Source of the DNA: Trametes villosa
Lineage: Eukaryota > Basidiomycota > Agaricomycetes > Polyporales > Polyporaceae
Direction: 5' to 3'
NCBI GenBank assembly: GCA_002964805.2
Contig: PUDQ02000003.1
Span: forward strand, 558,001 to 622,000
Length of the DNA: 64,000 nucleotides
Shown: positions 3,967 to 41,550 of the stretch, piece by piece
How positions within the stretch are numbered: position 1 is the stretch's first letter
How the letters are laid out: each line of letters begins with the position of its first letter
The notes under the pieces: model-generated
What the model was told of the DNA's origin: nothing
Seen by the model: the letters and a program-made list of their open reading frames with translations, nothing else
Databases searched by the model: none
Made by a program: the position numbers and the translations under genes

Positions 3967-4512
3967 TCATGCAGCGCCGAACACGGCCAAGCCCTCGTCG
4001 TCGGACGCGTCCCCCGCGCCCTCCGGTCCCGCCCTCGACACATCCACATCCGCATCCACAGCGTGCGCGCCCTCCTCGGCCGCGTGCAGCATCTCCTCGT
4101 GCTCCATCGGCGGCATCAGCGCACCGTTGCCGACGAGCGCATGCCCATCCTCTGCCCCATCCTCGTCCTCGTCGTCCTCCACGGCGGAGGAGAACAAGCC
4201 GCTCCTGCGCGTCGCGCGCGCGGACATGCGCAGGCACGTCGGCGTCGCGGGCGAGTCGCGGCCGGGGAGCAGCACGGCGGGGTGCCCGTGCCCGGGCGTG
4301 AGCTCCGGCCGTGCGATCGCGATATGGCCGTGGCCGGCGGTGGTGGTCGGCGTCGCGATGCGCGCGAGCGTCTGCGCGGAGGGGATGACGACGTGGATCG
4401 CGGGGTGGGCGCTGTGCAGGGCGGGCCGGCGTGTGGTGGTGGTGGATGAGGAGGGGACGGGAGCGGGGGTGGTGAACGGGCCCGCGGCGGTGGAAGTAAT
4501 AGGAGAAGACAT
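3967..4512 (-). CDS. GHGH family, copy 1 (orphan low-complexity protein, 181 aa)
   Basis: Single exon from ATG 4512 to TGA at 3967-3969. The N-terminus (1-30) is Ser/Thr/Pro-rich, followed by the family segment IHVVIPSA (39-46). Gly-His-Gly-His boxes lie at residues 60-63 (TTAGHGHIA) and 74-77 (TPGHGHPA). The basic/serine block SARATRRSGLFSSA is at about 97-110, followed by an acidic Asp/Glu-rich half and an MPPMEHEE motif. No signal peptide, transmembrane helix or known domain is seen. The longer open frame reaching 4677 is not used because TATA-to-ATG spacing and family alignment favour MSSPITST. A TATA box (TATAAGAA) lies at 4640-4647, 128 bp upstream. Function unknown. His boxes could bind metal and RRS could be a kinase site, but both are guesses. 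Confidence 0.75.
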   Translation of the reverse strand: MSSPITSTAAGPFTTPAPVPSSSTTTTRRPALHSAHPAIHVVIPSAQTLARIATPTTTAGHGHIAIARPELTPGHGHPAVLLPGRDSPATPTCLRMSARATRRSGLFSSAVEDDEDEDGAEDGHALVGNGALMPPMEHEEMLHAAEEGAHAVDADVDVSRAGPEGAGDASDDEGLAVFGAA

Positions 4513-4639
4513 CGGGGCGATGGTCGATTCAGTGGAGAGGTGGAGGGTTGGTCGGTGAGGTTGAGTGCGGGTGGTTTGAGTGGCTGGATGTGGAGGTGTT
4601 GTGGTGAGTGAAGTCCGTGACGGTACTCGTCCGACCACA

Positions 4640-4647
4640 TTCTTATA
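4640..4647 (-). promoter_or_regulatory. TATA box of GHGH copy 1
   Basis: TATAAGAA on the minus strand, 128 bp before the ATG, matching the spacing in the other eight copies. Confidence 0.5.
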
Positions 4648-4679
4648 CAAGTTGCGATACACCTGCAGGCGAGCCACAG

Positions 4680-5532: not shown

Positions 5533-6042
5533 TCAAGCCGCCCTCAAGAGAGCTACGGCGCCGTCCTCGGGCTCCACCGGGGACCCCGTCCGGGAGCTCT
5601 CGACGCTCGCCGAATGCCGGTGCTCCTCTTCATCGCCGCCCTGAGCCCCCTGCGGGAGCGTGTCCTTGTCTTGCTCGGCCATCGTGTCAAGGTGTGCATC
5701 CGCGTCGCCCGCGGCAGAGGTGGGGGTGGAGGTGGAGAAGCGGCTTCTCAATGCCATCGCGCGGGCGGACCTGCTCGGCGCTGTCGGCGTGACGGGAGAG
5801 TCGCCGTACGTGGCGGGGGATGCGCACGCGCACGCGCCGTTCCCTAGCCCAGCCGTGCGCACTGGCGGCGGGGTTGAGAGTATGTTGGACTGTGGGCCGG
5901 CGATAGCGGGATGTCCCTTGTTCAATGTGCTGTTGTGCGCGGGGGCCGGGATCACGACGTGGATGGGGTGTGCGATGAGGCCGTGGCAGCGCGTGGTGGA
6001 CGTGGCGGGGACGGTGGCGGGGACAGTAGGGATGGTCGACAT
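5533..6042 (-). CDS. GHGH family, copy 2, with the GHGH box lost (169 aa)
   Basis: Single exon, ATG 6042 (MSTIPTV), TGA at 5533. Closest relative is copy 5 at 20717: shared IHVVIP/IHVIIP, TLNKGHPA, SPATYG, the Ser/Arg block and the acidic ASVESSR tail. Where copy 5 has TPGHGHGAC, this copy reads TAGLGNGAC (residues 65-68), so both histidines of the hallmark box are gone. The Ser block reads RAMALRSRFSTS, also degraded from RRSSLFS. The frame is intact with no stop, so this may be a diverging gene rather than a pseudogene. A TATA box TATAAATA sits 124 bp upstream, the same distance as in copy 5. Confidence 0.7.
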   Translation of the reverse strand: MSTIPTVPATVPATSTTRCHGLIAHPIHVVIPAPAHNSTLNKGHPAIAGPQSNILSTPPPVRTAGLGNGACACASPATYGDSPVTPTAPSRSARAMALRSRFSTSTPTSAAGDADAHLDTMAEQDKDTLPQGAQGGDEEEHRHSASVESSRTGSPVEPEDGAVALLRAA

Positions 6043-6165
6043 CTTTGAAGGGTGGGTTGGTTGTAGTATGAGATAGAAGAGTACTGGATATGTGAGGTCG
6101 CTTCGGCTGCGCCTGAATGAGTACTGAGTGCTGCGTTGAATGCCGTTCAGCGTCGCCCACATCCG

Positions 6166-6173
6166 TATTTATA
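6166..6173 (-). promoter_or_regulatory. TATA box of GHGH copy 2
   Basis: TATAAATA inside a block shared with the copy 5 promoter (TCGAGGTACGTCGTA then TATAAATACGG, GTGGGCGA, GCTGAACG). Distance to the ATG is 124 bp in both copies. Confidence 0.6.
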
Positions 6174-6199
6174 CGCAGTACGACGTACCTCGAGAATAG

Positions 6200-7306
6200 C
6201 TCCGCGTGAGGCATATGCTTGTAAATACTACCGAACAGGCAGCAGCGCAACGGCGTTGTTCGCCACGGGCGCGTCGCGCCGTGCGCAGGCTCTTGTGCTA
6301 ATCTTTGACGAATCGCCGCGTGGGCCAGTGTTGGGAGCACCGGGAGGAAGTCATGCATCTTTCGGCTTGATGTCGAACATAGTAGACATATCCATGGTTT
6401 GCGACGGTGTTCCGGTGTTTGTTCGATGATGGGCCGACGGCGAAGGTCGAGCGATCAAGAGTCCCTCCGCAGTGGCATGCTTGACGGAATCTGCAGGGTA
6501 GCGAGTCCTGCGAACAGTAACCTCAAGCAATCTCTGGGAGCACAATCAGAGCTTACAAGTATATGTGGAAACTCGCGGCCAGCCGGGACAACGCAAACGC
6601 CGCCACCCGGGAAGACGCTGCTCGCCCGAATTCTACGGTGACTGCAACACGGTGTTCATGCCGCCGAGTGTTGCCGTGCACACCGACACGGACGGAGTTG
6701 GCGTGCTGTTACGGATGTACGTCGACTTGTCAACGCCTAGGTAGCGGATGATTGAGATGATTAGCATTGTGCTGCCATGTATCTATCTTCGGAGTGCGGA
6801 CTCGCGTCCGTGAACAAGATGGGCTTACGGAGGGGGTGACGGCCTGATCGGTGCTCCATTGACGAGATGCTATCAGCAACTACGTTTGTCGCTACAGGCT
6901 GTGAGGTGTTGTATCCGGCAGCATCGAAGATGCGAAACGAGGACAAGTCGAGGTAGGCCGAGCATAGCCACCCGATACTGAACACCTCGGCAAAGGCCGG
7001 GATCTTGAGGCAGTACCGCAAGGACTCGGGGCGGCAGAGCAGGGACTCGAGCAAACGCAGATTGAATATAAGATTAAGCGGACCAGAATACAGTAATTGG
7101 CGGTAGGCAGAGTACCGATGACAGGGCTACAGTGTAAACATAGGTGATACATAGTAAGTTAGATAGGCTTATGAAGAGGCACTGGCGAGGAAGGCTCGGA
7201 ATAATGATAGCGGAAGGGAACGTGTCGTGTATCGTATGTATGCGCTCCCAGTACCAGCCGGGAGGGACCCTAGGGAGAAGGGGATGTGGGGGATGTGTGT
7301 CGTCGC
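6200..7306. other. Spacer between GHGH copies 2 and 3; no clear gene
   Basis: The part next to copy 3 (about 7140-7300) is homologous to the 3' flank of copy 4 (about 19380-19460), sharing CGGCTGGYACTGGGAG and CACGACAC followed by a Ct-rich run. It therefore belongs to the inverted duplication. The remainder holds short open frames only. Confidence 0.4.
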
Positions 7307-7831
7307 TCAGGCCATGCTGAAGCTGATACTAGGGACGTCTTGAGAATCGTCGGACGCCTCCACAGCGGACCCCGCCCTCGAGCTCTCGGCGCTCTCCGAG
7401 CGGCCATCTTCATCGGTACGCAAGGAAGCTTCGTCCTCCTCCAGGGGCGGTGTCATGGCACCGGACTGGGGCGCCTGCGCGTCGCCCACGTTGGAGGCTG
7501 AGAACGGGTTGTTCATCCGCATCGCCTGCGCGGACAAGCGCAGGTGCGTCATCGTTGCGGGGGAGTGGTGGGCAAAAGGGAGCGCGAAGAACGTCTCCTT
7601 AGCCGGGTGGCCGTGTCCGGGCGTGTCGAGGGTGCTCATGATCGCGTCGGGCGAGGGAAGGACCTCGGCGGGGTGGCCGTGGCCGCCTGTGACGGTGGGG
7701 GTGGCGATGTGCGCAAGCATCTGTGCGGAGGGGATGATGACCCTGTGAAGGGAGGCCCGGCGCGTCGCGGATGAGGAGGGGACGGAATTATTCGACTCGG
7801 CGGGGACGGCGGAAGGGATGATAGACGCCAT
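7307..7831 (-). CDS. GHGH family, copy 3 (174 aa)
   Basis: Single exon, ATG 7831 (MASIIPSAVP), stop at 7307. N-terminus is Ser/Ala/Pro-rich, then SATRRASLHRVIIPSA (21-36). GHGH boxes lie at 50-53 (TVTGGHGHPA) and 72-75 (TPGHGHPA). The Ser-block position reads QAMRMNNPFSAS, then a GAMTPPLEEDEAS motif and an acidic tail with SAESSRAGS. It is the mirror partner of copy 4, with which it shares the start MASI, SATRR-SLH-VIIPSA, RMNN-FSAS and MTPPLEE. No signal peptide or known domain. Function unknown. Confidence 0.78.
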   Translation of the reverse strand: MASIIPSAVPAESNNSVPSSSATRRASLHRVIIPSAQMLAHIATPTVTGGHGHPAEVLPSPDAIMSTLDTPGHGHPAKETFFALPFAHHSPATMTHLRLSAQAMRMNNPFSASNVGDAQAPQSGAMTPPLEEDEASLRTDEDGRSESAESSRAGSAVEASDDSQDVPSISFSMA

Positions 7832-7945
7832 CGGGAGTGGGTTGGCAGAGGAGATGGCGAATAAGGTTGGTAGCGAGTGGCAGGAGGCGAATTGGCTCTG
7901 GCTGGGAGTGGAGTTGGTGAGAGACGTTCGAAGCCATCAGCCCGA

Positions 7946-7953
7946 CTATTATA
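7946..7953 (-). promoter_or_regulatory. TATA box of GHGH copy 3
   Basis: TATAATAG on the minus strand, 115 bp upstream of the ATG. The partner copy 4 has TATAAGAG at 118 bp. Confidence 0.5.
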
Positions 7954-8231
7954 CTGGACACGGCCGCGACGCACCCCTAAGGCAAGCCGATTTGATAAGC
8001 CCAGTGAACAGCAGCTCACGCTGGCCACAGCGTCGAGTCGTGAGCACATCACGCCAAATGCAACGCGGGGCACTGCGCCTGGAACGTGGTATTGCAGCGT
8101 AAAGCGGCCCCACCAGATGACTCCTGTTGGAAACCACGGCTCGTCAATCCGCACTTCGCCCTCGAGAACGCGTACCTGAGTGATTCTTGTAGGCACGAAC
8201 GGCCCGGGCCTGTAACACGGCGAGGCGGGCG

Positions 8232-10300
8232 CCGAATCGTCCTCGCTGCGGTGCAACGTGCTGTAGGGGAGTTCGTGAGAACCCGAGGAAGACGGTGTGG
8301 TGGACGCTCATGTCCGCCTTCATTTCATTCTGAATCGCTGATCTGTACCGTCATGCGTTTACCCTTGACGTTAAGCGAGATTGCAGGCCGAACAGATCTG
8401 GGATCGTACTGCCAGTGGACCGCCTCATCGCGTCGGACGTGGTCAGCGGACCGCGGATGAGACACCTATGACCATGCCCGGAGTGCGCGACCTGGAGTAC
8501 ATGCGCAAGGACTTTCGGATGGGAACGCCGGCAAAGATCTGCGCGAATGCGACGTTAGGCGTATCGCCGGACAACGCATTCGAAGCAACAGGCGTACCTC
8601 TATTGTATTGCCTTCGAGAACGTATATTCGGCCTCTGGGGGCTTGAATAAGAACCATCAGAGTGAATTCCGGGTGCCCACTCCGGGCCGATGAAGCTCGT
8701 GAGCTGAACGTTCCGCCGTTTTGCCGTTTGAACAAGTCCTCAGGGGCATTCGTGCGTCGTTCACGAATGTACTTGACCCATGAGGTTTGGTGCCCGCCTC
8801 CCCACTACCGTGCTCTTCCATAATGTGAGGTCATGTCCGCTTGCAAGGCCAAGGGCAATCGCGCACCTAGGCAGCACGCACCCAGTTGCAGGTGGAGCTC
8901 GCGCAGCCCAAACAGGACATCAGCCACATTTCTCCTCGCACTGCGGCTGTGCATTCGCGATCGTCGCGAAGTCCAAGTAGGCTAGGATCGCACGGCCGTG
9001 ACCTACATGGGCGACGGGGTAAGGAGGACAGGAGCCAACCACGCATCAGTCTGGTCGGGCCCACCGCGGTCTGTATGACTAGTCGTAGATATAAGGCGTG
9101 TCAGGGGATTTGCGTGCAGGAACTCACCTGGTGGAAAGCGCAGCGGGTGGACGCCGTGTCCTTCTGTTCGGCGATATGGGCAGCCTGCAGCTGACTTCGA
9201 CCTTCTGCGAATCTGGAGATGATCGATCTGCGGCAGGGGCAATAAAACGCTTGAGCTCTCCCACAGGCCGGCTTTCACGAACGTGCAGGCCGGCAGAACG
9301 TCATACATTCGTCTCCGCGACGTGAGGACGAGACATGTGCGGGGAGATGATGCATCTCACCTCTGACTGCCCCGCGAAAGAGGTCCCAGCCTTCTCGAGG
9401 CAATCTGACTGCGCCTCCGAGGGATGTAGTACCAACGCGGACGTCGGCGGCGTCCTGGAGCACCCCCATGGTAGCGCGCCGCCGCGCGGTACATGACAAG
9501 CCAGCCAGGCGGGTCGAGATGTATTACGAGGCCTCACTGTGCATGCAATCGCGCCTTCGGTCGTCACCGCGACACAGGGGCAGGTATCGGCGCGGGGCGG
9601 GGCAGGCGACGCTGCTGGCAGCCTCATTTGCACCTTGAAGTTTCGGCCTTGTTGCCTATCATCGGAACCTGCGGGTACGCCAAACATCAGTTGCATCCTG
9701 CGCAGTCGGCTTGGGGTGTGGCTTTTCACCAAAAGATTCCTCGCGATCGTCGGCGTATCCACTTGGTAGCGGAGACGCGAGTCCGACCTGCGCGCAGCCG
9801 TTAGCCCCTCAAGTCATATCGCAGCACCACAACGCAACCTCTCACCTGCCTATAGTGTACCTTACCCATGCCCCCAGGCCTCGCAAAGAGGGGCCGGGTT
9901 TCACGAGCTGTCGTCGCCGTCAGTGCGGAGACAGGGTCAGCATAATATTCAACATTCGACACGTGTGGGCGCTGTGGTGGACTCCGCAGTACATCTCATT
10001 CGCTCATCTGGGACCGGGCGACTTAGCGAGGTAAAGAGCCAGCAAAGGCGTGTCGTCGGGGCGAAGGTTCGGTCGAGAGGGAAACGACGCGTATGCGCTG
10101 CGCATTTGCGGTCTAAAGACTCCGGGCAGCTGGACCCTGGAGAATCAGAAGGCTGGAATCCGGGCGTGGTTCTCGCACACCAACGCCCGGGGAATGCGCA
10201 CAGCGCGAAGCGCACCCTAACGGCGTTGACGCGGTCCATTGCAGGCGTGCTACAGTAGATCCTGAGCACAAACAAGTGGTCAACAAACTACGCACTGCTC
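8232..10300 (-). pseudogene. Possible decayed multi-exon gene, no product recognised
   Basis: The minus strand has several short protein-like stretches in shifting frames, each ending at a donor-like GTACG or GTGAG. Examples are a segment reading GRIYVLEGNTIE before GTACGC at about 8568, one reading AQIFAGVPIRKS nearby, and one with MQLMFGVPAGSDDRQQG at about 9680. I could not join them into one phase-consistent model. They may be remnants of a gene, or chance in GC-rich DNA. No clean gene is present in this 2 kb. Confidence 0.2.
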
Positions 10301-15150: not shown

Positions 15151-15996
15151 ATGAACATGCCGACTTCCATGGACCACCACCCGACCTCCCAGGCCCCACA
15201 CCCGCACCAGCCACCACCGACCGTCTACATGCCAGTCTTCGTCTCCCCGCTCACCTCCGCGCGCCACCCCGCGCCCCCCGACTCGCGCACCGCCATCTAC
15301 ACCGTCCCCGTGCTCCCGCCACGCACGCTCGCGATCGGCCTCGCCGTGCACCTCCACCTCCTCGTCTCCCCGCTCGCGCCCGGCCCGCACACGCTCGAGA
15401 ACGCAGTCGTCGTCCCGCTCGCCATCTCCGGCCGCCTTGCGGGCCCGCGCGCGTGGGACGCGGCGACGGGCGTCATCGAGTTCGTGCTCGTGAACGAGGA
15501 CAGGGAGGCGTACGTCCGGCGCGCGGTGCTCCGCGTGCGCGCCATTCCTGGGGTGTCGGTGGATCTGGACATGGGGGGTGACCTTTCGCGGCGGCTTGAG
15601 GGCGTTGCTCCTCCCGCGCCTGTGCCTCCGCCGCCTACGCAGATGCATACACTGCGGTCCTTCCTCGCGCAGGCGCAGGCTGGAAGCTCGTACATTGGAA
15701 GTTCCTCGTTGAACTCGGGAGCGTACAGTCCATCCTCTTCCTCGAGCACGATGATACCGACAACGTCGTTCTGGGAGGCAGGGCCATCCCGTTCGATGCC
15801 GCCACCTCCGCCACCCCGAACGCGCCCGCCGTCTCCCCCATGGCTTGCCGCACCGAAGTCGGGTGTTGCCGGCAATGCACCGGTACCGCAGGGCCTCCTG
15901 CGACCAGTGGAGTGGGGAGTACCGCAGACGGACGTAGGGCGGGAAGACGGGGCGCCCGCCGTGGGCACTTCTCCAGTAGAAGGCGCAAGCAGCTGA
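15151..15996 (+). CDS. Orphan family B, member 1 (281 aa)
   Basis: Single exon, ATG 15151 (MNMPTSMDHH), TGA at 15994. An N-terminal Pro/His-rich segment is followed by a conserved core at about residues 25-160: PVFVSPLTSARHPAPPDSRT, then alternating hydrophobic strands, GRLAGPRAW, EFVLVNEDREAYVRRAVLRV and RAIPGVSVDLDM. The C-terminal 120 residues are Pro/Ser low complexity (PPPPPPRTRPPSPPW). The paralogue at 25510 conserves the core (RHPAPPDSRT, R-A-VRVR-IPGVS) but not the tail. The core looks like a small beta-sandwich, which is inference only. No signal peptide. A TATA-like TATAAGG sits about 50 bp upstream. Confidence 0.72.
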   Translation: MNMPTSMDHHPTSQAPHPHQPPPTVYMPVFVSPLTSARHPAPPDSRTAIYTVPVLPPRTLAIGLAVHLHLLVSPLAPGPHTLENAVVVPLAISGRLAGPRAWDAATGVIEFVLVNEDREAYVRRAVLRVRAIPGVSVDLDMGGDLSRRLEGVAPPAPVPPPPTQMHTLRSFLAQAQAGSSYIGSSSLNSGAYSPSSSSSTMIPTTSFWEAGPSRSMPPPPPPRTRPPSPPWLAAPKSGVAGNAPVPQGLLRPVEWGVPQTDVGREDGAPAVGTSPVEGASS

Positions 15997-18405: not shown

Positions 18406-18691
18406 GCCATCCCCTGCGGTGCGGTCGACACGAATCTGCGCTCGCCCGGCCGTTTGACTCACAGGCCCGGGCCGGTGGTGTCTACGGGAATAACTCAGGT
18501 ACGCGTGCTCGAGGACAATATGGAGGCTGTGGCTTCCCAGGCTGACGTGGCGTTACGCCGCATCGTTGCGTTTCACTCCGCAGTGCCCCCCGTTATGGCC
18601 GCGGTATGCCCAGGAGAAGCTATGGCCGGCGTCGACTGGCCCCTGGCCTGGTCAAATTCACCTCGTGTTGGTGTTGCCTCGCGCATAGTAG

Positions 18692-18699
18692 TATAAGAG
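18692..18699 (+). promoter_or_regulatory. TATA box of GHGH copy 4
   Basis: TATAAGAG, 118 bp upstream of the ATG at 18817. Confidence 0.5.
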
Positions 18700-18816
18700 A
18701 ACGAGTGGGCGGCTGTGGTCATTTTATCACCTCCACAGCTGGCAGCCACAGCCGGTCGGCCTCTATCACTCGTTCTTAACCTCGTTCACCGCCTCTCCTT
18801 CCAGCCCACTCCCCTG

Positions 18817-19311
18817 ATGGCGTCTATCGTCCCCTCCACCACTTCCTCAGAGCCGAGCACCCCCGTTTCCCCGTCATCCGCGACGCGCCGGCCCTCCCTC
18901 CACAAGGTCATCATCCCCTCCGCGGAGATCATTGCGCGCAACGCGACCCCTACCACCACAGGCGGCCACGGCCACACTGCCACTCCCCCGCCGGAAACCA
19001 CCGAGGACACGCCCGGACACGGTCACCCGGCAGGAGGCTCCCAGGCTCCTGCGCTCCTCGTCTGGCACGCTTCTCCCTACCACTCCGCCGCGTCGCCGAC
19101 GCACCCGCGCATGTCGGCGCGCGCTACGCGGATGAACAACTCGTTCTCCGCCTCGAGCGTGGCCAGCGCTGAAGCGCCGCCCGCGGGCGTGATGACGCCT
19201 CCCCTGGAGGAGCAGAGTGAGGGGCCCTCGTCTTCCGATGAAGATGACCGCCTGGAGAGCGCGGAGAGCTCGAGGGCGTCGTCCGTCGTGGACGCGCCCG
19301 AGGGCTTTTAG
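18817..19311 (+). CDS. GHGH family, copy 4 (164 aa)
   Basis: Single exon, ATG 18817 (MASIVPSTTS), TAG at 19309. SATRRPSLHKVIIPSA spans 21-36. GHGH boxes lie at 50-53 (TTTGGHGHTA) and 67-70 (TPGHGHPA). RATRMNNSFSAS is followed by MTPPLEEQ and an acidic tail SAESSRASS. It is the mirror paralogue of copy 3 and keeps every family block, so it is a good reference sequence for the family. No signal peptide or membrane segment. Function unknown. Confidence 0.8.
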   Translation: MASIVPSTTSSEPSTPVSPSSATRRPSLHKVIIPSAEIIARNATPTTTGGHGHTATPPPETTEDTPGHGHPAGGSQAPALLVWHASPYHSAASPTHPRMSARATRMNNSFSASSVASAEAPPAGVMTPPLEEQSEGPSSSDEDDRLESAESSRASSVVDAPEGF

Positions 19312-20575: not shown

Positions 20576-20585
20576 TCGTATCGCG

Positions 20586-20593
20586 TATAAATA
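20586..20593 (+). promoter_or_regulatory. TATA box of GHGH copy 5
   Basis: TATAAATA, 124 bp before ATG 20717, in a roughly 70 bp block shared with copy 2. Confidence 0.6.
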
Positions 20594-20716
20594 CGGGCGT
20601 GGGCGATGCTGAACGACATCCAACCCAGTTCTCGATTCTCCTCTCGCCGCATCCGAAGCGACACTCAAGTACCAGTACTTCTCCCTTTAATACTTCTCCC
20701 TTCCCGCCTTTCAACA

Positions 20717-21244
20717 ATGTCCGCCGTCTCCGCGTCTTCCACCACCACCGCGCCCTCCGCGTACACCACCGCGCGCCGCTCTTCTCTCGCCGCGCAGCCC
20801 ATTCACGTCATCATTCCCACTGCGGTGGTCCCCATGCATTCCGACACGCTGAACAAGGGCCACCCCGCTGTCGCCACAGCCGCCTACGCCTCAGCCTCAG
20901 ACGCGCTCCTGAGCCCCCAGACGGCGTGCACCCCCGGACACGGCCACGGCGCATGCGTCTCCCCCGCCACGTACGGCTCCCCCTTGTCGCCGCGCACGTC
21001 CGCACGCGCCATGCGGAGGAGCAGCCTGTTCTCTACCTCCATCGCGAACGACGCCGACGCGAACGCGCACCCTCTCGCAACAGGTCTCATGACCCCGCCG
21101 ATGGAACAGGACGTCGAGGTGCTCCCGCAGGAGGCTCACGGCGACGATGAGGAGGAGGGCTCGCACCCCGAGTTCGCGAGCGTAGAGAGCTCGAGGGCGG
21201 GGTCCCCGGCGGCGCGGGCGGACGACGACGACGTCGCGTTGTGA
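20717..21244 (+). CDS. GHGH family, copy 5 (175 aa)
   Basis: Single exon, ATG 20717 (MSAVSASST), TGA at 21242. IHVIIPTA is at 29-36. The first box is replaced by TLNKGHPAVA. The single GHGH box lies at 74-77 (CTPGHGHGAC), followed by SPATYG, the complete Ser block SARAMRRSSLFSTS, MTPPMEQD, and an acidic tail with ASVESSRAGS. Mirror partner of copy 2, which has lost the histidines. No signal peptide. Unknown function. Confidence 0.78.
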   Translation: MSAVSASSTTTAPSAYTTARRSSLAAQPIHVIIPTAVVPMHSDTLNKGHPAVATAAYASASDALLSPQTACTPGHGHGACVSPATYGSPLSPRTSARAMRRSSLFSTSIANDADANAHPLATGLMTPPMEQDVEVLPQEAHGDDEEEGSHPEFASVESSRAGSPAARADDDDVAL

Positions 21245-25509: not shown

Positions 25510-26322
25510 ATGGATCAGCGTCCCATTATCCCCCTACGTCCGTGCTCCTATGTACCGATCTACGTTTCTCTCCTTACCTCCGAGCGACATCCAGCACCGC
25601 CGGACTCGCGGACCGCACTTTTCATCCTGCCTGATATCCCCCGGCATCCCCTTGAAGTCGGCCTTCGCGTTCGCTTGTACCTCCATCTACCCCAGCCCGG
25701 ACGTGGACCGTGCCCGCCCGGGGCGAACTCTTCCACCGCCGAACTCGACGTTGCGGGATCCATCGTCGGGCAACGCGCGTGCGAGAGGGACGAGGTTGAG
25801 TTCGTCGTCAGGAATGACGACCGTGGCGGACGCATCCAGCGCGCGTTCGTGCGGGTGCGTGTAATTCCTGGCGTGTCCGCGAATCTCGATATCGGCAGGA
25901 GCCTCGCGCGACGCCTGGAGAGTCTGCCTTCGCAAGCGCAACTGCTAGTTTCTGACACGCTCCCTCTGGATCCCCTCATGCCGTCGCCGCAACCGTCATA
26001 CGCACCCGAGCTCCAACGAGTGGCACCGCCAGACTTGAGGATGCGCTCTCACACCGGTTGTGACTCCCTTGTCCCTGCGACTCGCTACCACCCCGAGTTG
26101 TCGAGCCTTGCGCGCGCCACATACCCGCCGGAGGAGCCCCAGACGATCCCACCACCTCCGCGACTCCCGTACCGCGTACCCACTCCACCGTGGCGTGCCA
26201 CGCCGCCATCTCCTGCCTGCGGTAGCGTCGTCTCTGGTAGTTTGCTGAGACTGGGAGATGAAGTGGGCGGCGTAAAGACGGGCGAACGGGGCGCCCGCGA
26301 TGGACCGTCACGCTTCTCGTGA
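25510..26322 (+). CDS. Orphan family B, member 2 (270 aa)
   Basis: Single exon, ATG 25510 (MDQRPIIPLR), TGA at 26320. The core aligns with the protein at 15151: VPIYVSLLTSERHPAPPDSRT (both copies keep RHPAPPDSRT), strand-like VGLRVRLYLHL, EFVVRNDDRGGRIQRAFVRV and RVIPGVSANLDI. The C-terminal half is Pro-rich and unrelated in detail, although both contain an RTRPPSPPW or RVPTPPWRA motif. No signal peptide, membrane segment or known domain. Same strand as member 1 and, like it, near GHGH genes. Confidence 0.72.
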   Translation: MDQRPIIPLRPCSYVPIYVSLLTSERHPAPPDSRTALFILPDIPRHPLEVGLRVRLYLHLPQPGRGPCPPGANSSTAELDVAGSIVGQRACERDEVEFVVRNDDRGGRIQRAFVRVRVIPGVSANLDIGRSLARRLESLPSQAQLLVSDTLPLDPLMPSPQPSYAPELQRVAPPDLRMRSHTGCDSLVPATRYHPELSSLARATYPPEEPQTIPPPPRLPYRVPTPPWRATPPSPACGSVVSGSLLRLGDEVGGVKTGERGARDGPSRFS

Positions 26323-27609: not shown

Positions 27610-28092
27610 ATGACATACTCAGTTCCGGGGCACGGTCACGCTGCCTTTGCCACCCCCTCCGAGCACTCCACCGACCCCGCGGAGGATGAGCCCAAAGGGT
27701 GTCCTCCGCGGATGGCAGTAATCTGTCAGGTCCTTCTCATGCTCCGGAAGCTGTCACACAGCAAGGGGCCCATTACCCCCGGACACGGGCACCCCGCTCG
27801 CGTTGTAAACCCCGAGGCCCTCGCCCTAGCCGAGGCAGATTCACCCAGCACTCCTGAGCGCGGACGCGATGTTCTCGAGCTCGTCGTTCTCTCCACAAAG
27901 AACTCCCTGAAAGGCCCGACCACTGCCGGTCGACGCATGTCTGCGTGCGCGGCGCGCCGAAGCAGCCTCCTCTCCACTGCGGCCGACGTCGACGAAGCTC
28001 CGCCTTCCACTATGGAGGAGGACGCACAGCTGATGGGCGTTGCGGAGCTCGCCGATTTCGCATCCGTTTTGGTGGAGGAGCCGGCGGAGTAG
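27610..28092 (+). CDS. GHGH family, copy 6 (160 aa, N-terminal box type)
   Basis: Single exon, ATG 27610 (MTYSVPGHGHAAF), TAG at 28090. Here the first GHGH box is at residues 7-10, directly after the start, and the second at 58-61 (TPGHGHPARVV). The SACAARRSSLLSTA block and the acidic C-terminus are kept. The segment between the boxes contains MAVICQVLLMLRKL, a hydrophobic stretch absent from other copies and too short and interrupted to call a membrane helix. With copies 7-9 it shares the start pattern SVxGHxH. Function unknown. Confidence 0.72.
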   Translation: MTYSVPGHGHAAFATPSEHSTDPAEDEPKGCPPRMAVICQVLLMLRKLSHSKGPITPGHGHPARVVNPEALALAEADSPSTPERGRDVLELVVLSTKNSLKGPTTAGRRMSACAARRSSLLSTAADVDEAPPSTMEEDAQLMGVAELADFASVLVEEPAE

Positions 28093-30963: not shown

Positions 30964-32882
30964 CTAGTAGCGTAAATTCATGGGCGGTGGTGAAGGCATA
31001 ATTACGATTTGATGCCCATAGTCCTCATATGAATTCCGACTCCGGGGCGAATACGATCGACTACGGGACCGCGACCGCGAGACTGAACGGCGGGAAGACT
31101 GGCGGGGTCGCGGAACCTCGGTATGCCATCCCTCCAACCTCAGCGTAATCTCAGCTGGGTCGCCGCGGTCCATCGTAGCCCGCGCGCGGTACTGCCCCAG
31201 CCTGCCCACCTGAAGGGCGAGGAGCAGCAGCTGCAGCTCGGCGTTCCGCCCTGTGCTCGCCTGAGCATCGCGCGCTTCAGCAACGTCCAGATTCGGGAAC
31301 AGCATGTCGAGCGCTATGGCAAAATCCAGCAGGCCCCTAGTGCGCTCAATGCTGTCGATGTGGAGCTCGCGGAGACCGTGTTCGAGGATGGGGACGGTCT
31401 CGAGTTCGGGAACCGCGTCAAGGTCGAAAGAGGGGATCTTCAGGCGTGCGAGGTGCGAGTGCGCATGGGCGAATGCAGCGATTGTCTTGATCGTTGGGTG
31501 ATCGCGTTTTGCAGGCGGAGGTTCCGGTATGACAACACTAGGGCCAATCGGATAGATGCCGTCGTAGTAAGTCGTCGCAGGCCGTGGTGGAGGGGCTCTC
31601 TTTGCGACCTCAAACTCGACCAAGTCGGGCCAGGCGTCCGCGAGCGCACTAAGTGTATCGTCCGCGAGATGGAACTTGATGCCCTCGAATCGGAATGAGA
31701 TAGTTCGCAGGCCCTGTGCGACACCGGCACGCAACGGCTCGAACAGTTTCCTGCTGTCTGGAAAGTGTCCCTCGGAATCGCAGCGGCATTGGAACGTAGC
31801 GCGGAGTCGGCGAAGAGGAGGTGCCAATGCCGCCAGTAAGGGCTCGACGTTCCGCCTCGCGCGGGTGTATGACGTCGTCCCTTGCGAGGAGCGTTCCCCG
31901 TCGCACAAGCCCTTTGCCTCGATGGAGAGATCTATGAGGTTAGGGGGTGCCGTGCAGGCGACAAAGTTGCAGATGTAGCCAAGAGGACCGGTGAGCGACA
32001 GCTCGCGCAAGCTAGCGAAGCCCGCTTTGCTCTCCAACAGGGGCGTGTCGAGCTTGAAGTTGAGCTGGAGAATCCGCAGATTAGGGAAGCCCGCCAACGC
32101 GCGGACCTGGGTCGGAGTAAGAGTAGCCTCGTGCAAAACTGTGAGCGTGTGTAGCCGCGTGAGGTCCCAGAACGGGACTTGCGCCCGAGGTAGACGAGGG
32201 TCGTTTGTCGCATGATGTTCGGAATTTGGTGTCCGGTCATTGATTGAGAGATGGAGGGTGGATGCCAAAGCTAACTGCGCCGCTTGTAAGACCATACGCA
32301 GGACGCCGGATTCGGTGTCCGAGGCGATGGTGAGGTCGAGGTTTCGAATGGACGGAGAGAAGAGCATGGTGTAGCAGAGACTGTTCGAGTTGACGGTCAA
32401 GCCAGAAACGCGCTCTAGACGCGGGAGAAGGGGTCCCGGCGAGCACCGCTGCATCAGTACGATCCACACGGCGATGTGGACCTTGCCGATGTCGGTGAGG
32501 TGTAGGCTTCGCACCCGCGTGGCGTACTGTAGAAACCTCGCCCAATGCGCCTCGGTAACCACATCGTCGAACATCTAGAACAAGGATCAGAGATCGATAC
32601 CGGAAAACGAATGAATTGAGTAGGACTGACGAATTTCTCCTTGTTGTAGGTAGGGAAAACATAGAGAAGATGTCGAAAATCATCTATATCCCGCCACAGG
32701 GCGTCAAGGGCAGGGGTGGACACGGCGCGACCGACACAGGCTACTTGTGCCAACGCTTGCCGGCATTCCAGCCGGTAACCCCGTTCTGTGTTGTCAAGAC
32801 CTGCCAGAGGACCCGGGGCGAGCTTACACAGGATCCTCGAGACGATCTTCGGCGACGATAACACTTCTGCTGAAGCTGACAT
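30964..32882 (-). CDS. F-box protein, paralogue 3 (about 620 aa)
   Basis: Exon 1 32882-32631 (MSASAEVLSS), intron 32575-32630 (56 nt, GTCAGT...GTTCTAG, phase 0), exon 2 32574-30964. The intron is required here because exon 1 otherwise runs into another frame. Exon 1 supplies the F-box region (ILCKLAPGPLAGL, RLECRQALAQVACVGRAVS, ALDALWRDIDDF). Exon 2 starts MFDDVVTEAHWARF and carries LRR-like repeats (LRELSLTGPLGY, LRTISFRFEGIKFHL) and a C-terminal Arg-Ser tail (RSVSRSRSRSRS). The 28426 and 30964 genes are head-to-tail neighbours, consistent with tandem duplication. Confidence 0.8.
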
Positions 32883-34232: not shown

Positions 34233-34811
34233 ATGGGCGGTTCCGTCTCCGGTCACGGCCACGGAGCCTTCCTCGACCCTCGAGAGGTCGGAGACTTTGC
34301 CTCGTCTCAGGCGGATGACTCGCAGGACACTACTTCCAACCAAACTCCCCCGAACACGCCTACCGCGCCCGGCCACCGGCGCCAGCTCGCTAAGCTCAGC
34401 ATCCCACCCACCTCCAAACACCTACTAGGGTCCCCTGGCACATTCGCGGTGGCCGGGCACGGACATGCGGCGCAAGCGCACCCTAGCCCACTATCCTCGA
34501 CCAGCGCGCCGCCGACACCGTCGCTTCCTCGCCCATCCGCACGTGCGTCGCGCAGGAGCAGCTTGTTCTCCAGTGCAGCCGACTCCGGGAGGGATCCCGC
34601 ATCGGAGAGCGCGTCCCCCGAGGATCCATCCTCTGACGTCGCTCGCGATGGTCTGATGCCGTCAATCGCCGACGCGCAGGAGGAGCTGTCGGACGGCGAG
34701 CACGACGGCCACGTCGACCCCGTTGGCACAGGCGTAGGCGGTGCTTCCAGAGATGGTGGCGTTGAGCGCGAAAGCCCGTCGGCGTCCCTCCCTCCGTCGA
34801 CGCTGCATTGA
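34233..34811 (+). CDS. GHGH family, copy 7 (192 aa, N-terminal box type)
   Basis: Single exon, ATG 34233 in a CCACCATGG context (MGGSVSGHGHGAF), TGA at 34809. GHGH boxes lie at 7-10 and 75-78 (AVAGHGHAAQA). A third site reads APGHRRQ, possibly a decayed box. The Ser block is complete (SARASRRSSLFSSA), followed by an acidic segment and DGLMPSIADAQEE. No signal peptide or known domain. Unknown function. Confidence 0.75.
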   Translation: MGGSVSGHGHGAFLDPREVGDFASSQADDSQDTTSNQTPPNTPTAPGHRRQLAKLSIPPTSKHLLGSPGTFAVAGHGHAAQAHPSPLSSTSAPPTPSLPRPSARASRRSSLFSSAADSGRDPASESASPEDPSSDVARDGLMPSIADAQEELSDGEHDGHVDPVGTGVGGASRDGGVERESPSASLPPSTLH

Positions 34812-36173
34812 CGGAGAAAGCGTCCGTAACTCACTAGCGGGCGCGTGTGTATGGACCTCCGCATCTTCGTGTATTTGTATCACAACCGACTAGCTAGTGG
34901 CCCGTACCGATGTATACCCCCTATTTATTCCCTATTTATCTTGTACTATCGACTTGTTGTACCCCATATATATTGTACTTCCTAGCAACTGCGTCAGCGT
35001 GGAAGGTTTGGTACTTGACGTGCACACATCATCTGCACAACGCAAACGAGGCGGAGAAGGTTTTAAACCTACAAAGTTCGGCATGCCTGCTTGCAGCTCT
35101 GGTTCAATCGATTCTCGTTCATTCGCAGCGATCCGCGCGCCCGCCCCTGGCAGACTGTAGAACCCGAAAGTGCATTTCCAACTCACTGCTAGGCGGTGCG
35201 TCCCCCTAAATCCCCAAGGCTCGAAGGGACAACCTCCTACCAGGCACGTTGTCCGTTCAAATTCACAAGAGCAGGGCCGCCTTGCCATGTGCTGCCGCGG
35301 CTACTGCCCAGGAGCTACAGAGATCTCGGGGAGATGCCCACCGAGCGAAGCTTTGCGTAGAGCCTTGGATAGAACGGTACCGAAACGATCGAGAGTGGTG
35401 GTGCCTCACTTGAGGCCCTTGGCCGCCCTGTTTGTCGAGGCTCAGCAGGGCGCAATGGAGAGATGTTGCATTCAATCAGCGCCGGGGCGATATCGGCGCA
35501 GAACCGCCATCCCGACGCATCAAATCCCGGACTCCGCGTCCGTTGTGCTTGTTCGGGGATCTGCGGAAGAGTGCCTGCCACGTGCGGTTAGTGTTCAGAA
35601 GGAATAACCAAACGACGCTCGCCGCTCACAATCCCTGAGAGACACACGTAGCGCATAACGCCGACGAACTTTGACGTTGCGAGTCAGCAGGCAGTGCCCC
35701 ACCTAACTCCTGCGCGTCTTCGAGTGACTCGGGTCCGACAAGGAGCAGGAACAGACGACTCATCGTGATGGATAATGCACGGTCTGGCTTCAGGTACTGT
35801 GAACTCGAGAGCTTCGGCGATTTGAAGACGCACAGCCTGCGACCGCGGCGGTGCAAAACTCGCATGCCCTGATTACGGGCGGGCGCCACGCACGGAGACG
35901 ACATCGCGGCAGTGCGCCGAGTGCTCCGTGCCCTTTGATGCACCGTTTCAATGCTGATATCCTCGCCGCGCCCAAGATGCGACGCAGGAGAGACGATCTC
36001 GGGGCAGGAGTCCGTGTCGCGACTCCGCTCCGTTGCGTTTCAGAGGGCGGTGCCCGGCGCCACGAGCGCGACGCGAGAGGGACAGACGCGCGTGCAAGGG
36101 AGAGGGGCAGCGCATGTTTGATGATGTTGAAGATACACGCGTGAGGGTTCTGGCCGCGAGAGGCCTAGAGGGG
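34812..36173. other. No gene recognised; distal part is a duplicated promoter
   Basis: 34812-35780 has only short frames. From about 35840 to 36010 the sequence is homologous to the upstream region of GHGH copy 9 (see separate entry). Confidence 0.4.
35840..36010 (+). promoter_or_regulatory. Conserved upstream block of GHGH copy 8
   Basis: Shared with 41850-42010 on the minus strand: CCGCGGCGGTGCA, GACATCGCGGC, TTTCAATGCTGATATCCTC, AAGATGCG then CAGGAGAGACGATCTCGG, and GTTGCGTTTCAG. The order and spacing are kept, so this is a duplicated promoter, possibly with conserved regulatory sites. Confidence 0.6.
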
Positions 36174-36181
36174 TATAAGTA
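36174..36181 (+). promoter_or_regulatory. TATA box of GHGH copy 8
   Basis: TATAAGTA, 125 bp upstream of ATG 36306. Copy 9 has the same octamer. Confidence 0.55.
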
Positions 36182-36305
36182 CGAGAATGGAATGGCGAGG
36201 ACCGCATCGACTCACTGAGACTGAGAGAGAGCAGCACTTGCATCTTCACCTCCAACCTCCTCATCCACACCGTTCTCGCACTCTCGCACGCCTACCTCTC
36301 ACAAC

Positions 36306-36857
36306 ATGTCCGTCATCGGCCACACCCACATCAGCGTAGTCTCCGGCTCACAGGCACCCGCCACCGGATCTGCCACCAACGCCTCCTCCTCTTCCGGCCA
36401 CGAGCTGCACGTCGCCATCGCGCCCACAGCTGCACGCGCGCCTTCGAGCATGACCACCCCGGTCACCCCTGGACATGGGCACGGCGCAAAAATCGCCATC
36501 CCCTACGTCGATGCGCGTCGCCCGACCGCCAACGACTCTCCCGTCACACCGGGACACGGACACGGCGCGCGATACGTCTCGTCATCGCCCGTGCAGCCAC
36601 GGCCTTCGGCCCGTGTTGCACGTCGGAACAGCCTGTTCGCTACCGGAGGCGGATCGCTCGAGGAGGGTGGAGACCAGGAGGACGCGACGCCCGGGCACCC
36701 ACTCTTCGACGTGGCGCACAATGGGACTCTCCCACCTCACTCGGAGACGGAAGAGCCGCATAGCGCGGAAGTCGACGGTCGCTTCAACCAGCCCGCGCAC
36801 GGACAAGGCGGTTCTTCGCAGGAAGAGGACCCCTCGAGACCATTTGGGAGTGCCTAA
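36306..36857 (+). CDS. GHGH family, copy 8 (183 aa)
   Basis: Single exon, ATG 36306 (MSVIGHTHISVV), TAA at 36855. GHTH box at 5-8, LHVAIAPTAAR at 34-44, GHGH boxes at 56-59 (TPGHGHGAK) and 83-86 (TPGHGHGARYV). The Ser block reads SARVARRNSLFATG. A segment shared only with copy 9 follows: GHPLFDVAHNGTLPP and GRFNQPAHG. The acidic/Ser tail ends SRPFGSA. No signal peptide. The near-parallel with copy 9, including the promoter, shows a duplication of the whole transcription unit. Confidence 0.8.
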   Translation: MSVIGHTHISVVSGSQAPATGSATNASSSSGHELHVAIAPTAARAPSSMTTPVTPGHGHGAKIAIPYVDARRPTANDSPVTPGHGHGARYVSSSPVQPRPSARVARRNSLFATGGGSLEEGGDQEDATPGHPLFDVAHNGTLPPHSETEEPHSAEVDGRFNQPAHGQGGSSQEEDPSRPFGSA

Positions 36858-37645: not shown

Positions 37646-40119
37646 CTACAGACCAAAGCCCCAGGCGTTGTCATCGGCATCGACGCTGTCTGAAGACTGA
37701 GCGATCGTCGTACCTGCGGCCGAATCAGATCCGCCAGCAGCATTTGCAGTGTCCTCCTCGTCCGGAGGAGGCGGGGGAAGCGCCTTGTCGGCGCTGGCCG
37801 TCTTCTCGCCTGCTCCCTCGGCGGGGGCATCGCCGGCGAGGACGGGGACGACGTTGGCCTCGGACGTAACGCCATCCTTCGAAGAGGCATCCCCCACGCT
37901 CAGAGTCGAAGCCGGTTCGCCCGTAGGAGCAGCTTCTTCCCCAATGCTCACCTTCGTGGAGTCCACTTGCGCCTCGGTCTCCTGGGGCTTCACGTCGACC
38001 GCCTCACCTGCTGGCGCGTTCAGGGCCGTCGAGGCATTGGCTGCGTCCTTCGGCGAAGCGTCTGACTTCGAACTGTCGGCGCTGGGTTGTGCAGAGGATG
38101 CCTCCTGGCTGTTTGCCGAAGCCTCGTTCTGGGGCCCACCCGCCTGCGAGGTGATTGTCGCCTGAGGAGGTGAAGATGATTCGGGTTCGGCCTCACGTTC
38201 GCCCTGCTGCCCTGTCGCGAGACGCTCACCCTCCCCTGTTCCTCCCGACCGCTCGTCCTCGCCGCCAGCAGGCGCAGGTCCTTCGGCGTCGGCAGGGGGT
38301 TCTGTGGTCGGCGTAGACTCCGTAGCATCCGTGTTCTGGCCCGCGCCGAGGGAGGCAGAGTCCGTGGTGACAACAACACCGGTGCCAGCACCGCCAATCG
38401 TATTCGTGAGTTCCGTAGAGTCCGTAGGGTCGTTAACAGCGTTCGTATCATCCTGCGGATCCCCATCCCCATCCGCCTCCACCACCTGTTCACCGCTGCT
38501 TCTTGCCAGCTTTGGTTTTGTTCTTCTTGCCTGGGGTGCTGAACCCGCCTTCGTCGCCGGTTTCTGCGCCTTCGTCGGTGGCGGCCTTTCCATCGGCTGC
38601 CTTGAGGGCGGCGAGGGGATCTTTGGCGTCGCCGGCGGGGGTGGCTGGCTCCTTGGCGTCGCCGGAGGGTTTGGCCACGGTCGGGGAGTCCTTGTTCCCG
38701 TCTTTGGCGTCTTTCCCGGCGGTGGCAGGTTCTGCGTTTCCAGCGGTGCCAAGGGGGGCGCCTGCGTTTGAGAAACGGCCGTCAGTCGGGGTGGCAACGT
38801 GGACGCGGAAGAGGAGAGCGCTTGACCTGAGGCAGCGGGCGTCGCAGAGGAAGACGTCGTCGTCGTCGGCTTGTCCCCGGCCGTGGGCGTCGCGGGCGCT
38901 GGCGCGTTGGTGCCTGCGGGCGTGTTAGCGGCCGGCTGCGAGGGCGACGTGGGGGTGAGGGTAGAGGGGGCGGACGTGCCGAGGAGCTCGCCGGCGACGC
39001 TTCCGACCAGGGAGCTGAACGCACCGAAGCTGGAGGAGAACGAGGTCGTGGGCGGGGGTGAGCGCGCTCGGGCAGCACTCGCAGACGCCGTCAACGAAGG
39101 ATGAGGCGCCGCAGGCTTTGCGATAGTGGGCACCGACGCGGGCGTCGTCGTCGTGTTAGCCGTCGAGGGCTTCGTCGGCGACTCAGGCGGGGCTGGCTTC
39201 GCACCGCCGGACTCCCTAATCGCCAGGCCCCCCGTCGCGCCGATCCCCTTCCGGGGAGAGGTAGTGGGTGTAGGAGCGGTGCCAGTGAACGTCGCCACAC
39301 CTGTACCTTTGTCGAGGGGGGTTAAGGAGGGAGAAGGGGGGCCGGCTGTGAGCCCAAAAATCTCCTTGATGATCGACACCATGTCGTCCTCCTCGAGCTC
39401 CGCAGCGGTCGGGCTACGCGCGCCGTTGGCGAGAGGCTTTCCGCGCGCGCACTCGCGCGCCGTCGCGAGCAGAAGGGCGGTCTCGAGGCCGAGGTGTCGA
39501 CCCTCCTTGAGCGACAGCGGTTCGGCGCGCAAGCAGAGGGCGGTGTATGAGGGGATGAGGAGCTTCTTGTCGAGCTCGTACGTCTGGTAGAGCTCGATCT
39601 TGGGCACCGGTGCGATCTCGAACTTCTCCAGCTCGCGGCTGCAGAGCTTCTTGACCTCGCCGAAGCGCCAGTCGAAGGCGAGCTTGAGGATCGCCGTCCA
39701 GTCCTCGAGCGTTGCGTCGTATATTGAGTATTTGCTGCGATAGATAAGCCAATGCTGAGGTGGAGATCAAACGCTACTCACGGGTTATAGAACACCCAAA
39801 GGAACTTCGAAAAGTCGTCCGAGGCGACGTCGTCCAGCGGGAAGGGATTCGCATCCGACGAACCCTTGGGAGCCTGCCCGGCGGGCGCCGGCGCCCCAAG
39901 CTTTTCACGGAACCATGCCGACTCGCGCTCGAAGAAGTATCGGTGGACGCGATAGATGAAGTTCTCGACCTACACGTCGACGGCGATTAGGACGCGCGAC
40001 GACGATGAATGTGGGAAACTAACCAAGAAGTGAACGTCACCACCGTTGAGGTAGTACTTCGGATGCCTCTTGATCTGCTCGACGGCCGACTGAGAGCCAA
40101 AGTAGTTGCTGTGGGCCAT
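37646..40119 (-). CDS. BTB/POZ-domain protein with long low-complexity tail
   Basis: Exons 40119-40024, 39969-39782 and from 39734 onward, with introns of 54 and 47 nt. Start MAHSNYFGSQ. The BTB/POZ fold covers about residues 15-150: YYLNGGDVHFLVENFIYRV, HRYFFERESAWFREKL, FPLDDVASDDFSKFLWVFY, YSIYDATLEDWTAILKLA. A second helical block follows (VKKLCSRELEKFEIAPV, ALCLRAEPLSLKEGRHLGLE). After about residue 220 the protein is Ser/Thr/Pro/Ala low complexity. The tail is uncertain: a 65 nt intron at 38762-38826 (branch CTGAC) leads to a frame with strong C-ending codons that stops at 38490 (487 aa, end KAGKKQR). If it is retained, the frame stays open to 37646 (790 aa, end DDNAWGFGL). BTB proteins often act as CUL3 adaptors or oligomerisation modules. 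Confidence 0.75.
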
Positions 40120-40965
40120 GATGGGGGAGTGGACTGTGTGGACGGAAGTCAAGGGGGAAAGGCGGGCGGCGCCAGAGATTTATGCGGGCGATCTCGTCAA
40201 CGCTCGGCTATTCTACACGTGTTGGCCGCATGTCGTCCAGGAACCTCGAGCACGTTGACTCTGCTTGTACGTCTTGGGGTTGCATCTGCGACTCCTGCTT
40301 GATTGTTCGGACACACACTCGACATTATGCGATGACTGGGAAAAGTGCGCGTTGTTTTTGTTGGTGGTGATGGTGGAAGACAAGATGCGTGCCGACGCGC
40401 GTCTACACAAATCTCCGTCTTTTCCGAGTACGTCCATCATCGTCAAGCACGCCTCTTGCCTGACGCTTTGTACCGCCCAGTTTACGAACAACAACGAACC
40501 AGGATGACATGTCAGCCGGCTAATATTGTTGACAGGGAAGAAGAGCAGAGTAATGCGTCGACATACTAAGGCCGCATCCAGTTACGATTAGGCGTTAGAC
40601 CACCACCGCACGCCGTGCGGCAATGCAACTTTGTACCAGAACAAGAGACCTAGGAACGAGAAGGAGTACGGTGAGTTGTGCCACGCTTGTCCAGTTTGCC
40701 TCAGATACTGACGTACAAGGACAGTCTGTCACTACGTGCAACGCTGCCCCGAGCGTAGTCGCCCGCCCGACTTGCAGGTTTTGTTAAAATACGCAACATA
40801 AATAAGCAGGTCGAGCGTAACAATACATGACGGTCTGCGGTCGAAACCCTCAAACATATCAGGCTACACCGGTATAGGGCAACATCTGCCGAAGTCTGTC
40901 TGTCTAACCAAGAAAAAACTTGAACCCCGCCGTCTCCTACACCTCTAGGTCACGAACGCTGAAGC
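40120..40965. other. Spacer upstream of the BTB gene and 3' of GHGH copy 9; no gene
   Basis: Holds the BTB promoter. Short frames only. AT-rich around 40780-40920. Confidence 0.4.
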
Positions 40966-41550
40966 CTAAGCTCCGCCGACCGGCCTCGAGGAAGCGTCCG
41001 CTTCAGTCTCCGGATTCTCGTCCAGGCCGCGCGCGGGCTGGTTGAACCGGCCGTGGATATCCCCGTCAGTCGGCTCATCCACCTCCATGGTCGGCGGAAG
41101 GGCTCCGGTACGCGCGACGTCGAAGAGGGGATGCCCCAACGATGTAGCCCCAGCCTCCTCCTCGCCCGACCCGTCGTGCACCTCGTCCGCGGTGGTGAAC
41201 TGGCCGCTCTGGCGCGTGACGCGCGCAGAAGGGCGCGGCTGGGCGGGCACCGACGGAGCATCGCTGTGCGTGGGCGGAAACACGAAGCGCGCGCCGTGTC
41301 CGTGCCCGGGCGTGCTAGCAGAGCTGTCGGCACTCGGGAGGCGCTCCTCAGTGTCGGGGATGACGAACGCCGCGTGCCCGTGTCCAGGCGTCAACAAAGT
41401 GGCCAAGCTCGAGGGCACTCGAGTGCTCGTGGGAGCGATGATGACGTGCAGGCCGTCTCTGGGGGAGTTGCTAGCGGGCTCGCCGGTGCTCGTCTGGGCA
41501 GGGGAGGCCTCGGCGATGTGGGAGTGGCCGATGACGCTGTTGGAAGACAT
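40966..41550 (-). CDS. GHGH family, copy 9 (194 aa)
   Basis: Single exon, ATG 41550 (MSSNSVIGHSHIAEA), TAG at 40966. GHSH at 8-11, LHVIIAPTSTR at 34-44, GHGH boxes at 56-59 (TPGHGHAAF) and 82-85 (TPGHGHGARFV). The Ser block is weakened (SARVTRQSGQFTTA). GHPLFDVARTGALPP and GRFNQPARG are shared with copy 8. The open frame extends upstream to 41970, but TATA position, family alignment and the duplicated promoter place the start at 41550. Unknown function. Confidence 0.8.
   Translation of the reverse strand: MSSNSVIGHSHIAEASPAQTSTGEPASNSPRDGLHVIIAPTSTRVPSSLATLLTPGHGHAAFVIPDTEERLPSADSSASTPGHGHGARFVFPPTHSDAPSVPAQPRPSARVTRQSGQFTTADEVHDGSGEEEAGATSLGHPLFDVARTGALPPTMEVDEPTDGDIHGRFNQPARGLDENPETEADASSRPVGGA

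Follow-up and report, generated by a model that had tools for sequence, protein, structure and literature searches.

Disordered proteins that are regulated by PKA through RRxS sites form a general class, and histatin 5 is a short and cationic salivary peptide. Histatin 5 and other histidine-rich peptides are described as disordered (PMC13071868), and in high-molecular-weight kininogen the histidine- and glycine-rich domain 5 carries GHGH repeats, zinc-dependent binding being named in a title that is cited there (PMC3173955). Here we describe a cluster of nine related genes from the wood-decaying bracket fungus Trametes villosa, the proteins of which for the most part combine GHGH modules with a basic block resembling a PKA-type phosphorylation site and with an acidic tail. 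The stretch of DNA that was analysed, termed the window, comprises 64,000 nucleotides (positions 558001-622000 of contig C3) of a genome of 46.7 Mb in 140 contigs, and the cluster is situated 0.56–0.62 Mb along this contig of 4.68 Mb.

The nine-gene cluster

All nine frames of the original prediction were present in the ORF list of the window, uninterrupted from the proposed start codons and on the proposed strands, with products of 160–194 residues (Table 1). For copies 2, 5, 6 and 9, the list gives a longer frame from an upstream ATG. A profile of the nine members retrieved all of them at E ≤ 5.4e-40, with the next of 1705 six-frame segments of the window at E 0.47; as the profile was built from its own targets, this comparison shows the absence of a visible tenth member and not kinship. 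No tenth member or relic was found among these segments or within 20 kb on each side of the window. Elsewhere in the genome, searches with copies 3, 5, 6, 7 and 8 revealed no further members among the best candidates scored: no match outside the cluster had an E value better than 0.01, and a profile of 50 family proteins failed to confirm the loci retrieved for these matches (best value outside the cluster 0.31). A pattern search with GGNCAYGGNCAYGSNGC gave 27 places in the genome, as compared with 10 for the reversed pattern used as a control; eight of these are inside the cluster, and none of the 19 outside it is a family member by the 50-protein profile. With five of the nine copies used as genome queries, the family members found in the genome appear to be confined to this cluster.

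Table 1 Members of the GHGH family and their duplicated units in the window (window positions; distance of TATAA from the start codon in bp)
Feature	Position	Strand or orientation	Description	TATAA
Copy 1	3967..4512	-	181 aa, class B; two GHGH; core SARATRRSGLFS	4647 minus, -135
Copy 2	5533..6042	-	169 aa, class B; partner of copy 5	6173 minus, -131
Copy 3	7307..7831	-	174 aa, class B; two GHGH; N-terminal RRASL; partner of copy 4	7953 minus, -122
Copy 4	18817..19311	+	164 aa, class B; two GHGH; N-terminal RRPSL; partner of copy 3	18692, -125
Copy 5	20717..21244	+	175 aa, class B; one GHGH; RRSSL twice; partner of copy 2	20586, -131
Copy 6	27610..28092	+	160 aa, divergent; two GHGH; SACAARRSSLLS	27471, -139
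Copy 7	34233..34811	+	192 aa, divergent; two GHGH; SARASRRSSLFS	34095, -138
Copy 8	36306..36857	+	183 aa, class A; GHTH and two GHGH; SARVARRNSLFA; partner of copy 9	36174, -132
Copy 9	40966..41550	-	194 aa, class A; GHSH and two GHGH; kinase consensus lost; includes the stretch TPGHGHGARFVFP	41694 minus, -144
Duplicated unit, promoter and gene (3/4)	7199..8240 vs 18430-19453	inverted	blastn 67.6% over 1082, E 4e-88	
Duplicated unit (8/9)	35842..36802 vs 41027-42008	inverted	blastn 62.5% over 1028, E 2e-23	
Duplicated unit (2/5)	5556..6194 vs 20565-21230	inverted	blastn 65.0% over 691, E 5e-36	

The highest pairwise amino-acid identities were those of copies 3/4 (60%), 2/5 (55%) and 8/9 (51%), and blastn within the window paired the same copies (Table 1); together, pairwise identity and blastn constitute evidence of kinship that is independent of the profile. 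Upstream of the start codons, identities over -150..0 and -400..-150, respectively, were 63 and 62% for pair 3/4, 72 and 38% for 2/5, 57 and 63% for 8/9 and 51 and 48% for 1/4, with coding identities in this comparison of 65–70%; further out (-800..-400), the values were 41, 37, 48 and 39% in the same order. The random baseline, derived from 40 pairs of unrelated 250-mers, had a mean of 34% and a maximum of 44%. From these values, promoter sharing in pair 2/5 is limited to the last 150 bp, and in the outer interval the identity of pair 8/9 still exceeds the random maximum by a small margin. An open frame, the TATA box and the tail remain in copy 2, from which both GHGH boxes and the kinase consensus (see below) have gone; this copy is possibly a decaying paralogue.

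Promoters and coding constraint

Judged by their sequence, the nine frames look like real genes of a tandemly amplified family. The word TATAA was found 122–144 bp before the named ATG in all nine, once in each within 400 bp; in the interval -170..-90, which was picked after the promoters had been seen, its background frequency is 2.4–2.6% (436 of 18172 sampled positions and 46 of 1794 ATGs). Apart from TATA, no convincing shared upstream 8-mer was detected, the best being present in four of the nine (p 0.0008, uncorrected for 5367 words). In copies 2, 5 and 6, the ATG of the longer frame lies 11–28 bp past TATAA and at or before the likely start of transcription; that of copy 9 is upstream of TATAA. 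The TATA positions would therefore favour the start codons of the original prediction over the longer upstream ATGs. These putative promoters argue for the expression of the nine genes. Of 23 scored pairs, 22 had their lowest conservation at the third codon position and one showed a tie (the other 13 pairs of the 36, with amino-acid identities of 33% or less, were left out, and the alignments were protein-guided, which biases them towards conserved positions 1 and 2). The dN/dS ratios were 0.57 (3/4), 0.48 (2/5) and 0.41 (8/9), and values near 0.5 would mean weak constraint.

Frames that are untranslated and merely held open by base composition might be expected in a window with 60% GC and many overlapping ORFs. 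However, the codon-position pattern, the TATA box at a nearly fixed distance and the conservation at the protein level across genera all speak against this explanation, which we find hardly credible.

Relatives and classes

Three successive profile searches yielded 27, a further 4 and a further 10 public relatives, that is, at least 41, each search scoring approximately 8000 candidates that shared most words, so that more may exist, other families included. Thirty of these relatives, which carry a source name (11 others do not), belong to Trametes, Cubamyces, Lenzites, Pilatotrama, Cerioporus and Ganoderma. A taxonomy look-up of three of the species placed all of them in the Polyporaceae, and we take the remaining named genera to be members of the same family. 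Homologues with conserved boxes were expected in related fungi, and all the named relatives indeed come from related bracket fungi. They have been deposited as hypothetical or uncharacterized proteins, and none of the at least 41 looks identical to the proteins of the window, the end branches of which are 0.36 or longer. In seven species, two or three members seem to be located on one contig (in Lenzites betulinus and in T. polyzona, for example, three each), so that these species, too, may have clusters; of the two T. pubescens members found, each has a small contig of its own, and the contig of a fourth Lenzites member is likewise a different one.

In a tree of 50 proteins, copies 8 and 9 were placed together with the Ganoderma and Cerioporus relatives in class A (22 rows, support 88/92) and copies 1–5 in class B (18 rows, support 92/97), with both supports below the starred level and the root set by midpoint only. 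Copies 6 and 7 have long branches and an uncertain placement. Class A, being more widely spread, would seem to be the older one, and class B may represent an expansion within the Trametes group.

Domains and predicted structure

None of the nine members had a Pfam-A match above the curated cut-off (the best sub-threshold match was NPP in copy 8, with 18.8 vs 21 bits), only one member of a 13-sequence family set had weak Pfam matches, and the 13-sequence profile gave no match in PDB at E ≤ 1. These searches agree with the proposal of an orphan family with no known domain, and neither homology to a characterised family nor a lack of conservation came to light. The predicted absence of signal peptides and membrane helices also held in a simple hydropathy scan, in which the highest 19-residue mean was 1.23. 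The AlphaFold model of copy 5 had a mean pLDDT of 53.5, a pTM of 0.16 and zero secondary structure, and was based on a shallow alignment of 32 rows, for which low confidence need not equal disorder. By the charge-hydropathy rule, two of the nine proteins are on the disordered side and seven on the folded side, by 0.006–0.042 of mean hydropathy. The proteins would appear to be disordered.

Histidine modules

The reported numbers of boxes, 15 exact GHGH together with the variants GHTH (copy 8) and GHSH (copy 9), were correct, with 2, 0, 2, 2, 1, 2, 2, 2 and 2 GHGH in copies 1 to 9; as a common feature, the box holds for eight copies and fails for copy 2, the sole HxH of which is EHRH and not a true module. 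Six-frame translation of the window contained 17 GHGH, as compared with a mean of 0.85 and a maximum of 4 in 60 first-order Markov sequences; the two outside the family are at 52272+ and 8479-. Across the 50 family proteins, we counted 141 HxH (shuffled mean 35), 81 GHGH (0.25) and 87 [ST]PxHxH (0.76), counts that are not independent events, since the proteins share descent. HxH is present in each of the 50 and occurs at least twice in 45 (range 1–6), and its number differs between close relatives. The commonest residues around it are, in percent, T69 P68 G70 H G73 H G39 L33 F27. A 32-protein alignment shows the last module with T in 31, P in 29, H in 29, G in 32 and H in 30; since T and P are as conserved here as both histidines, the conserved unit appears to be wider than GHGH, namely [ST]P-x-HxH-G-hydrophobic. 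In the Ganoderma and Cerioporus relatives, GHGH is replaced by GHSH, SHSH, THGH or THPH.

The buffering or carriage of metal as the main function would assign to paired HxH the binding of Zn2+, Cu2+ or Ni2+, with two pairs forming a four-His site and with genes induced by metal. The presence of HxH in every protein, and of two or more in nearly all, is consistent with this, as is the first module, which in the same alignment keeps G-H-G-H (25, 28, 29 and 29 of 32) with no preceding Pro reaching 75%; in several class B proteins, TP of the first module has changed to TGG or TAG, while GHGH stayed. On the other hand, the Thr-Pro of the last module is as conserved as the His pair, and plain chelation needs no Thr-Pro; furthermore, 39 of the 50 members have no Cys, and copies 2 and 5 possess fewer than two HxH. 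We regard metal handling as a rather unlikely main function.

Basic block, kinase consensus and acidic tail

Family alignments revealed a basic block, SARxxRRxSLF, followed by an acidic tail, the latter being general, as proposed: the net charge after the basic block is -10 to -17 in all nine copies. Within the 22 rows of class A, the block has S in 22, R in 22, R in 22 and R in 21, then S in 20, L in 21 and F in 21, and a further conserved string, PPTxEAEEPxSAELDGxF, is present in the tail; the conservation of core block and tail in this class extends from Trametes to Ganoderma. A loose pattern, [SA][AGV]RxxR, matches 42 of the 50 proteins and misses eight. The exact strings of the original prediction have a narrower distribution. 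LHxVIIP is shared in exact form by copies 3 and 4 and by no other copy, MTPPLEE, stated to be frequent, is seen as MTPPLE in the same two copies only (copy 5 has MTPPME), ESSRA of the ESSRAGS tail is limited to copies 3, 4 and 5, and SARAxRRSSLFS is exact in copies 5 and 7 only. Such blocks are family tendencies and not constants.

The consensus RRx[ST]-hydrophobic is found in 35 of the 50 proteins (20/22 in class A, 11/18 in class B and 4/10 of the others), with 38 occurrences vs 0.94 in shuffles. A basophilic-kinase site, previously suggested for the RRS blocks, may thus exist in the six of nine window members that have the consensus, which is absent from copies 1, 2 and 9. In copies 3 and 4 and in T. 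versicolor proteins, an RRx[ST] site is present near the N-terminus and the core has changed to RRSG or RMNN; this position of the site in some class B proteins could be the result of site turnover or of chance.

Proposed function

The function that we tentatively infer for the family, at somewhat short of an even chance, is that of kinase-regulated, inducible, disordered multivalent adaptors, with HxH as docking motifs that are possibly metal-bridged. The adaptors, presumably intracellular and presumably induced, would carry the HxH modules as short linear docking motifs in several copies on a flexible chain; these would become competent for docking through a bound divalent metal, or through phosphorylation of the Ser/Thr-Pro before the module. 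A PKA-type kinase would phosphorylate RRx[ST]-hydrophobic, and this would switch the contact of the basic block with the acidic tail or with a partner such as 14-3-3. The excess of [ST]PxHxH, the conserved last module, the kinase consensus in most of class A (20/22) and the missing fold of copy 5 are in favour of such adaptors; against them are the lack of the kinase consensus in 15 of the 50 proteins, including three of the nine window members, the shallow alignment behind the copy 5 model and the charge-hydropathy values, which are slightly on the folded side for seven of the nine. More doubtful is the broader proposal that [ST]P-x-HxH-G-hydrophobic is an undescribed docking motif, for an unknown conserved partner or a metal-bridged complex, and that the cluster encodes Polyporaceae-specific, PKA-controlled disordered scaffolds which diversify by module number.

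Genomic neighbourhood

Three LRR-like loci are situated between copies 5 and 7 (21792-23783 -, 28426-30321 - and 30964-32574 with 32454-32882 -). Their LRR_14 matches are weak and below the Pfam cut-off, and no F-box match was found in them with Pfam; by eye, the three loci are alike and also resemble a frame pair in the flank (7375-9222 minus, in flank coordinates). A true F-box match occurs at 48586-49008 +.

The presence of these loci is compatible with a fast-evolving family associated with species or conflict, the modules of which would be recognised by another fast-evolving system, e.g. by the interleaved LRR-like genes, and so are the lineage-specific duplication and the changing number of HxH. 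The neighbourhood alone says little, since these fungi commonly possess large F-box/LRR families, and the conservation of the class A core block and tail from Trametes to Ganoderma, together with dN/dS below 1 in the closest pairs, points in the opposite direction. We consider this explanation improbable.

Other ORFs in the window include two paralogues (15151-15996 + and 25510-26322 +) that are 40% identical, have no Pfam match and belong to a family with 31 genome-wide matches at E ≤ 0.01, and, between copies 8 and 9, an ORF of 578 aa rich in Pro, Thr, Ser and Ala, also with no Pfam match (37646-39382 -). A microbial-type PARG catalytic domain (E 8e-44) is encoded at 44695-45603 -, and at the right end of the window we detected pieces of Glycosyl hydrolase 71 (61358-61846 +) and of a class II tRNA synthetase (62429-63031 -).

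A mating-type locus was rejected at the contig level, as all STE3 matches are on contig C10 and the single Homeobox_KN match is on C49. The STE3 pheromone-receptor cluster at C10:124824-167349 is probably the MAT-B locus. Groups of UstYa-family matches at C9:29308-83191, C4:34680-52392 and C3:3671709-3700112 are candidate clusters for peptide natural products.

Some relatives (e.g. P0022 and P0023) have repeated modules of similar length, as a precursor of processed peptides would, whether of a dikaritin-type fungal RiPP or of a pheromone. Both types were rejected: hydropathy shows no signal peptide, dibasic sites number 0–3 per protein and do not flank every module, the contig has no UstYa-family match nearer than approximately 3 Mb, all nine proteins lack the C-terminal Cys for prenylation (no CaaX) and the pheromone-receptor matches are all on C10. 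A processed peptide is accordingly scarcely probable, and even when it is taken together with untranslated frames, the two account for a very small share of the probability; what remains beyond the explanations given here belongs to functions that we have not thought of.

Comparison with known systems

In the titles and abstract starts of the openly licensed PMC literature, we found no description of the family, and none of the locus tags TRAVEDRAFT_74347, TRAPUB_9656, TRAPUB_11742, GSI_12532, LXA43DRAFT_1136548 and V8D89_009680 was found in that literature. In kind, the GHGH family is a lineage-restricted disordered family, and no Pfam or PDB entry or paper that we found describes these proteins. 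Lineage-restricted disordered families are common and seldom have an interpretable anatomy; here, the modules can be counted, the kinase-type site is conserved, the core promoter is uniform and the paralogues form a clean set, so that the gain and retention of function in an orphan disordered family become testable. Should the module prove to bind metal or to serve in docking, a new short linear motif would be added to those known, and joint induction of the genes would make them markers of a response peculiar to these polypores.

The likeness to kininogen domain 5 consists in a stretch of GHGH repeats, as in the Trametes villosa proteins. Kininogen is a secreted animal plasma protein and has no Ser/Thr-Pro context, RRxS block or comparable acidic tail, and we know of no sequence kinship between the two. 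Histatin 5 is likewise rich in histidine, whereas the GHGH proteins are acidic and by hydropathy have no signal peptide. With the PKA substrates the family may share the RRx[ST]-hydrophobic consensus, most consistently in class A, and no homology to any described PKA substrate was found. The hypothetical proteins of six polypore genera (such as TRAVEDRAFT_74347 and GSI_12532) have the same architecture and are relatives by profile search; among the matches listed, their species have fewer copies each than the nine of the window.
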